Assembly (NCBI RefSeq): GCF_029962835.1
Contig: NC_080583.1
Coordinates: forward strand, 1,426,001 to 1,490,000
Length of the DNA: 64,000 bases
From: Magnolia sinica
Taxonomy: Eukaryota; Streptophyta; Magnoliopsida; Magnoliales; Magnoliaceae
Direction: 5' to 3'
The position numbers and the translations under genes are program-made. The notes beneath the pieces are model-generated. The model searched no databases and was not told the DNA's origin. It saw only the letters and a program-made list of their open reading frames with translations. Shown piece after piece: positions 33,268-36,200 of the stretch. Position 1 is the stretch's first letter; each line of letters begins with the position of its first letter.

Positions 33268-36200
33268 TCATGGACCGTACAAGTCTATCCATTGATCCAA
33301 GCCGTTGATATAACAGTAGGTGCTTTCAGGTATATACAAGAAATCATCTCCAAAATCTCCAAGGAAAGGCTGGTGTGCATCCATCGACAATGAAGAGCTT
33401 GGGCTGCAGCTTCTTTCTCCCTCCGACACTCCGTCGCAGCGCTCCGAAAGCTTCCTTATCTCTCTCTCAGCTGCTGAGAGCTGCTCCTGCAGCTTCAATA
33501 CCTGCGATACGGTGCAATGGAAGAGATGATCAGAACCGTCTAGCCGATGGGACGGATCATGGATAGGAGAGAGACTTAAAATGTTTTGATTAGAAGATCC
33601 TAATCATCCAATATATCGCCTGGTTTCTGGACCGTTGTTGTGTTTTCTTTCTTAACGGTTTGTTTGTAGGCCACAAATATCATGGTTAGACAATAATCCA
33701 AACCGTTCAAATCAAATCGACGAAGATGATAGTACCCATCTGATTTTCCCTTGGAATTTGGACCAATCACTAATTTACATTCAACCATCCATTTTATAGA
33801 AATCAATTGGACGGCTAGAATTGCTTAATCAGCATAATTTTATAGATATGGTCTATCCACTATGTTCCCCACAATTTGGATGGTCTGGATAGCTATAAAT
33901 GAGTGCCACATGTCAGGAGAATGATCCACCGTCCAAAATGGTGCAAACTCGCTTGAGAAAGCGCGTGCCACAAAAACCTCCGTGTGGCTGACAGTGACGC
34001 GTGTGTCATATCCGGTCCGTTAATCATTTCAGCCAGTTCACGTTAAGGACACGTGAGCCCAACCAATCCGGTCCTTCCAAAACTCCATTAGGCCAATGGG
34101 AATGGGGGACGGCCACCGCGAAGCCTTCCCAAGCCCCACCTTGATGTTTACATGCAATCCAACCCGTTCCCAAGGTGGTGAGGTCCCACCAGTATGAAAA
34201 GATATATATATAGTTTTGGTTCAAAGTAAAAATTGTTACCAAAGGTTTCACGAGGTTCTACTTCATGTGGACTGTTCAGCTAAACTCATCAGATGCGATA
34301 AGCTCTCAAAAAAGTTTGTTTGTAGTCCATTCGCAGGTGAGCGTTCCATATATATATATATATAGAGAGAGAGAGAGAGAGAGAGAGAGAGAGAGAGAGA
34401 GAGAGAGAGAGAGAGAGAGAGAGAGAGAGAGAGAGAGAGAGAGAGAGAGAGAGAGGGTACTATGCGCTTGACCTCACGAGTCCGTCTATGAGGTCGAGCT
34501 GTGTGGGCCCCACCGTGATGCGTTTCGAACATCTACCCCATTAGTCAGATGCAACATTCCATATTAGGCCTAGGTCTCAAAAATCAAGTCAATCCGTGAC
34601 TTTTATGGGCCACACCACATACAAAAGTGGGGAGGGGCCGTACACCATTAAAACATTCATAATCATTTTTTGGGCCCACCGAGATTTGTTTTGCAAATCC
34701 AGCCCATCCATTATGTGTGTCCCACTTGGATGAGGGTTCAGACCAAGTTTCAGCAGCATTCAAAACTCAAGTGGGCCCCATCAAGTGCTTTTATACGTTT
34801 TAATGGTGTCTTTACATGATTTTAGATGGTATGGCCCACCTGAGTTCCATATACGGATGATTTTTGGGATATCCCATAATTCAGAGGGGACCCATCAAAT
34901 ACACGGTGTTGATGGTCGACACGCATCATGGTGAGGCCCACATAACTCAACCTTACAGGAGCTTATCGTGAGGTAAAGCTCACGGAACCTTTTCCCTGTA
35001 TAAGGAAAAGGTACTATGCGTGGGATAATGTACTATGCACTTGACCTCACTATGTAGCTGTGTGGGACCTACCGTGATGTGTGTTGACCATCAACACCGT
35101 GCATTTGATGGGTCCTCTCTAAATTATCGATATCCAAAAATCAGCCGGAACTCAGGTGGGCCATACCATCTAAAATCATATGAAGACACTATTAAAACAT
35201 ATAAAAGCACTTGGTGAGGCCCATCTGAGTTTTAAATGCTGCTGAAACTTGGTATGAACCCTCATCCAAGTAGGACACACATAATGGATGGGTTGGATTT
35301 GCAAACAACATCTCGGTGGGCCCAAAAAACTGATTATGAATGTTTTAATGGTGCACGGACCCTCCCCACTTCTGTATGTGATGTGGCCCACAAAAGTCAC
35401 GGATTGACTTGATTTTTGAGACCTAGACCTACGATGACATGGTGCATCTAACTGATGGGGTAGATGTTTGAAACACATCACGCTGGGGCCCACAGAGCTT
35501 GACCTCATGGAACGGACTCGTGAGGTCGAGCGCATAGTACCTTTTCCATACATATATATATATAAAAGCTTTGTCCAAAGCTTTTGTGGGCCCAAGGAAG
35601 GTTTCAACAGCAGGGATCCCCATCCGCACTTTCCCCTGTAGTGTGGCCCACTTGAGCTGTGGATGCGAAACAAATTATAAATATCACTCACACAAATCGG
35701 CACGCATACATAGAAGCAGCACGCGTGCAAGCTCACACGTGTGAACCAGACACGTACCTCGTCTTGGAGCTTGCATTTCTCGACCACGATGGCTTCATGA
35801 ACTGTCTTCAGCCTCAAGTACTGCTCTTCGAGCTGCTTGCTCTTCCAGCGCACCCTCCGGTTCTGGAACCAGACCGCTACCTGCCGAGGGTCGAGCCCCA
35901 GCTCAGTAGCGAGGCGGTCCTTCCTCGCTGCTTCCAGCTTCGTCTCGTTCCCGAAATTTATCTCCAACAAGCTCACCTGCTCAGCACTCAGCTTCCTCTT
36001 TTTAGGCCCTGCTGCCATCGCCGCTCCTTCTTCTTTCGCATACTTCCTCCTCCGCCTCCGCCTCGTCTCTCCTACAAACACTTAGAATTAAAAACAAATT
36101 ACATACATAGACAATAAAGTACTAACCAGTCTTCCCCAACTACGTGATTTTCACATGACATCCAATCCGTCCATCATCCGTGTCACTTCATTTTCTCCTT

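Follow-up and report, generated by a model that had tools for sequence, protein, structure and literature searches.

An inverted pair of MITE copies in an HD-Zip intron of Magnolia sinica, probably a two-element array of a microsatellite-targeting family

The second intron of an HD-Zip gene of Magnolia sinica holds two copies of one MITE in opposite orientation and 8 bp apart. Very probably, this pair is an array of two elements from a microsatellite-targeting MITE family of high copy number, built by independent insertions and an ordinary by-product of that family. It matches a kind already known from the microsatellite-targeting MITE arrays of guayule, rice, Medicago and pineapple. The striking hairpin that the intron could form needs no special explanation: a family that dwells in TA repeats keeps setting copies side by side, some of them opposed. 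A point of some interest is the shortage of such inverted pairs relative to direct pairs in this genome. Positions given below are those of the window, the whole stretch of 64,000 nucleotides that was analysed (NC_080583.1, positions 1,426,001 to 1,490,000, forward strand), unless a genome contig is named.

Structure of the MITE pair

The left copy (arm 1, 34456..34995) lies in (-) orientation when the copies at 35004 and 39357 are taken as (+), and the right copy is arm 2 (35004..35547, (+) orientation), with the 8-bp spacer CTGTATAA (34996..35003) between them. A (TA)n and then (GA)n microsatellite (34350..34455) is found on the outer side of the left copy, in which a (GA)n run takes the place of the outer GGAAAA of the terminal inverted repeat (TIR). 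Similarly, a short (TA)n flank (35548..35565) follows the outer side of the right copy. A third copy (39357..39903), oriented (+) as the right copy is, sits in a (TA)n-rich stretch, where the sequence-only reading had placed it (39.4 kb). The head-to-head arrangement described in that reading agrees with both the sequence and the alignment, and the 17-mers that it quoted from the two arms were found at 34584 and 35396.

Aligned globally, 34456-34995 and the reverse complement of 35004-35547 are identical at 474 of the 524 aligned positions (90.5%), and internal gaps take up 30 positions. Local BLAST of arm against arm gave 88.5% over 489 positions, and when 83 copies were aligned together the p-distance between the arms was 0.122. 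The arms are above the ~75% identity that the sequence-only reading took as its floor, and the long inverted structure is real, but the term "near-perfect" overstates it at this identity and distance. The opposed arrangement of the arms is not due to chance. In predicted folds of the 1092-nt RNA, the arms were paired over most of their length on either strand (-829.5 kcal/mol and 490 pairs for the + strand; -832.7 kcal/mol and 492 pairs for the HD-Zip sense strand), and the longest uninterrupted helix of the sense-strand fold was 72 bp with G-U pairs allowed. By this prediction the full pre-mRNA could give a duplex of ~0.5 kb, as had been proposed. The loop end of the hairpin is not a clean duplex, because the right copy bears, at its inner end, a 19-bp extra terminal repeat (35004-35022).

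Besides the match of arm 1 to the third copy, the other long inverted matches of the window are a 643-bp self-match of 67.5% at 14540-15158 and an inverted repeat at 19817-20367 with arms of ~209 bp at 83%. The window also holds a direct repeat of ~1.08 kb at 89% identity (5936-6992 and 9589-10667) and one of ~480 bp, also at 89% identity (25437-25917 and 32203-32669).

The host gene

The HD-Zip gene is read from the (-) strand. Its first coding exon runs from the ATG (36694..36766), the second encodes the homeodomain (35758..36071), and the third encodes the rest of the zipper, the C terminus and the stop (33268..33501). Splicing the three exons gives an intact ORF of 206 aa, with a homeodomain at residues 49-101 (PF00046, E 3e-15). 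A HALZ match (PF02183, residues 103-137) lies at the expected place with an E-value of 0.053, below the cut-off of that family. A homeodomain with a leucine zipper directly after it is the arrangement that defines an HD-Zip protein. The second intron (33502..35757, 2256 nt) is of the GT...AG type, with the donor GTACGT at 35757 and the acceptor CGCAG at 33502. These splice sites, together with the spliced ORF, support the earlier placement of the hairpin in this intron, about half of which is made up of the MITE pair. The third copy lies ~2.6 kb upstream of the start codon. Another dispersed repeat was seen in the same intron at 33709-33947, with 39 genome match rows at 74-85% among 40 scored candidates.

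A large family that lives in microsatellites

The element is ~547 bp long, with TIRs of ~80-100 bp at 77-88%, and its family terminus is GGGAAAAGGTACTATG. A first look at the 1.84-Gb genome (127 contigs) gave 6980 and 6630 candidates for the two arms. Forty candidates were scored for each arm and all of them matched; each set of 40 includes the arm itself. The left arm was 92-94% identical to the 39 other scored copies, and the right arm 88-92%. The MITE family is very large.

A microsatellite flank was counted where a dinucleotide run had 4 or more units. Of 82 distinct full-length copies, both window copies included, 72 had such a run at each end and 9 at a single end, while the remaining copy had none; both window copies are among the 9. 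The 82 had been picked because they resemble an arm or belong to a pair, and so are not a random sample. We also looked genome-wide for copies with a 5' flank barred from being a plain dinucleotide repeat, which gave 15 places. Five of these had no recognised far end, and in the other 10 the far side was (TA)n in 9 and (CA)n in 1. Moreover, several of the atypical 5' flanks are themselves impure repeats. No convincing target-site duplication (TSD) of 8-11 bp was found among the 15 copies, so the element is placed with a superfamily by analogy: as in published families, the transposase is probably Mutator-like.

Comparison with known microsatellite-targeting MITEs

Dinucleotide flanks, end-to-end arrays and a short element with TIRs, three of the features by which microsatellite-targeting MITEs are recognised, are seen in the Magnolia family. 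Judging by their description, the SaTar elements of guayule, rice, sorghum and citrus (PMC5907723) are likewise non-autonomous TIR elements of small size that lie between (TA)n or other microsatellites, through which they are linked end to end. They differ in that members of 11 of the 15 guayule families are described with 10-bp TSDs, which were not found in the Magnolia copies examined. SaTar arrays are also described as mixing families, whereas in Magnolia a recognisable family member lies on both sides at 53 of the 78 junctions considered below.

The likeness extends to Ac-mMITE-1 and the other mt-MITEs of pineapple as they are described in PMC8449440, which are 510-570 bp long and flanked by (TA)n. 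They too carry terminal GA/TC runs, ascribed in that account to slippage after insertion, and form clusters by independent adjacent insertions, with 46.1% of the full-length copies there found in clusters. Their TIRs are longer (140-180 bp, against ~80-100 bp in Magnolia) and the host is different. For pineapple genes with an mt-MITE upstream or downstream, the same account gives no difference in leaf expression (PMC8449440). The MuTAnT elements of Medicago, in the published description (PMC4486113), also target (TA)n, with 36 of 218 in introns or UTRs, and their founding element can fold back; they differ in size, 90% being 200-300 bp. An autonomous Jittery-like relative is known in that system (PMC4486113).

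Origin of the window pair

The arms were compared in the alignment of 83 copies, and 45 pair members served as the reference for ranking. By distance from the left arm, the right arm took place 39 of 46, and by distance from the right arm, the left arm took place 34 of 46. The four closest copies at other sites lie at 0.063-0.069 from the left arm and 0.073-0.078 from the right. From the family majority, the left arm shows 35 changes and the right arm 39. Four of these are common to both, each also occurring in 1-7 of the 45 copies, and against these copies no private change common to both arms was found. The change lies in the left arm at 28, in the right arm at 34 and in both at 1 of the 63 mismatched columns, a count that comes from the 83-copy alignment and differs from the 50 mismatches of the global one. 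The arm comparison gave no sign of either gene conversion or selection preserving the duplex. Since the arms are no closer than random members of the family and have no private shared change, we conclude that the pair arose by two independent insertions.

Two other origins were weighed. A local inverted duplication, with one copy doubled in place as a palindrome through foldback or template switch, would explain why the copies are adjacent, inverted, of the same family and 8 bp apart. However, the left arm is 92-94% identical to the 39 scored copies elsewhere but 88.5-89% identical to the right arm by BLAST; these inter-copy distances and ranks, with no private shared changes, rule this origin out for all practical purposes. 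An assembly artefact, in which two copies were joined at a collapsed repeat, has in its favour that repeats and microsatellites are error-prone. It is nevertheless extremely improbable, as the arms differ at ~10% of positions, the same intact gene continues on either outer side, and junctions of this kind are found at many further loci.

With two independent insertions, one MITE copy would have entered the HD-Zip intron where it was rich in TA. Another copy of the family, later in the order that we infer, would have landed next to it in the adjoining TA-rich flank, facing the other way, and the resulting inverted pair would have the potential to form an intronic RNA hairpin. Most likely the hairpin is lost when the intron is spliced out and serves no selected function, the lack of function being the default view and not a result. 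Low-level dicing of the hairpin into siRNAs would be possible.

Adjacent pairs across the genome

Facing family termini with 0-30 bp between them were found at 35 places with strict 11-bp ends (0 in the reversed-pattern control) and at 99 places with relaxed 9-bp ends, for which the control gave 12, so that some of the relaxed junctions may be chance. Fifty of the 99 were listed, on contigs C1 to C8. A further 21 places had 31-60 bp between the termini (control 0). The listed spacers are mostly dinucleotide repeats; the window spacer is not, and the spacer CTGTCTG of locus L062 is another exception.

The 0-30-bp set comprised 67 distinct junctions, 36 in loci L009-L023 and L054-L072 and 31 in loci L073-L104 (L086 was dropped, as it repeats the junction of L014). 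Thirty-one were direct, 14 inverted and 22 unclassified (p = 0.016). On 45 known cases, the second classifier gave the same call as the first in 39 and no decision in 6. When the 22 unclassified junctions were compared with themselves, a few showed related sequence on both sides (L023, L057, L081, L094) and were left unclassified. The bias came to notice in these first sets, and the junctions with long spacers were used afterwards to check it. Here, 8 junctions were direct, none inverted and 3 unclassified among the 11 of 21 examined (L120-L130; p = 0.008), the other 10 being left out, one of them by choice for a spacer that is not a microsatellite. Taken together, and with the window's own pair left out, the 78 junctions comprise 39 direct, 14 inverted and 25 unclassified (two-sided binomial p = 0.0008 against equal numbers, in a test that takes junctions as independent when a few sit in the same array). 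Inverted adjacent pairs are thus about one-third as frequent as direct ones among the 53 classified junctions.

Full-length pairs in the first sets were direct in 18 cases against 4 inverted. The direct ones are 85-96% alike, comparable to random members of the family (for which the median pairwise distance is 0.088, from a different alignment), so most direct pairs are not recent tandem duplications. The four inverted full-length pairs were also folded. Three of them were better matched than the window pair (92.5, 94.7 and 94.9%) and had a higher predicted stability per base, and one was worse matched (84.6%). With 14 other inverted pairs among the 78 junctions and three of the four full-length ones better matched, a special status for the window pair is unsupported.

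The shortage of inverted pairs could reflect loss by instability, a bias of insertion, or loss in assembly. The count of 39 direct against 14 inverted raises the prospect that arrangements able to form hairpins may disappear from this genome or be disfavoured by selection. The nearest parallel that we found is the exclusion of inverted Alu pairs in human, as reported in PMC3215922, where inverted neighbours are likewise rarer than direct ones, in another element class and another host.

Loci L058 and L126 lie on contig C8 (81.815-81.818 Mb). At L058, three copies in the same orientation are joined by (TA)n, and two more copies in that orientation lie just before it at L126, which suggests an array of five.

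Small RNAs and methylation

The transcribed hairpin might instead be a working source of siRNAs or a proto-miRNA that would methylate its own locus or silence family copies. The size of the predicted duplex (~490 pairs, with the 72-bp helix on the sense strand) and its place in the intron of an intact gene speak for such a role. So do rice stem-loops reported to arise from two juxtaposed inverted transposons (PMC3086885). In the loci described there, two cognate inverted elements each supply one arm of the stem-loop, as in Magnolia; osa-MIR1879 is called a bona fide miRNA in that report, and osa-MIR815b/c are called not bona fide. Small-RNA reads back those loci, whereas the Magnolia pair is known from its sequence. 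Further examples of MITE-derived siRNAs are given in a review (PMC12595863), and a general model has been put forward for miRNA birth from opposed neighbouring repeats (PMC10004981).

C-to-T/G-to-A changes in both arms suggest past methylation and could be read in the same sense. Among 45 family copies, these changes occurred at 0.139 in CG, 0.107 in CHG and 0.030 in CHH contexts, that is, 4.6 times (CG) and 3.6 times (CHG) the CHH value. The left arm (CG 7/48, CHG 5/35, CHH 9/193) fits this family footprint, and the right arm (CG 9/44, CHG 2/34, CHH 14/190) fits it at CG but not at CHG. The pattern therefore suggests past methylation of the MITE family in general, with nothing special to the hairpin. 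Against a small-RNA role, moreover, the arms change independently, better hairpins of the family exist elsewhere in the genome, and an Rfam search of the window at gathering thresholds gave 0 matches. In pineapple, mt-MITEs are described as giving less 24-nt siRNA than their TSD-flanked counterpart, the ml-MITEs (PMC8449440). The idea of a small-RNA source is a reasonable one; we consider it unlikely that the hairpin works as such a source.

Maize Mu killer is a model of a trans-acting hairpin silencer. By analogy, a duplex transcribed from the HD-Zip promoter might yield siRNAs against the family termini and an autonomous relative, an idea to which we give a very small chance. If it held, an ordinary intron insertion would have turned into a silencer, and the low number of inverted pairs (14, with 39 direct) would be due to such hairpins having been removed or lost.

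A paralogous HD-Zip gene lies ~279 kb away on the same contig, with exon 3 83% and exon 2 84% identical. By its inferred splice sites, its corresponding intron is ~0.7 kb long. No MITE was found in that intron (best match E 0.17), and no (TA)n run was seen on reading its sequence. The introns of the two genes are otherwise no longer alignable, so the paralogue shows the absence of the pair and not an exact empty site. This MITE-free intron makes a conserved, gene-specific hairpin unlikely. A 48-bp tandem duplication was also observed in the paralogue's intron (contig C11, 1739440-1740180).
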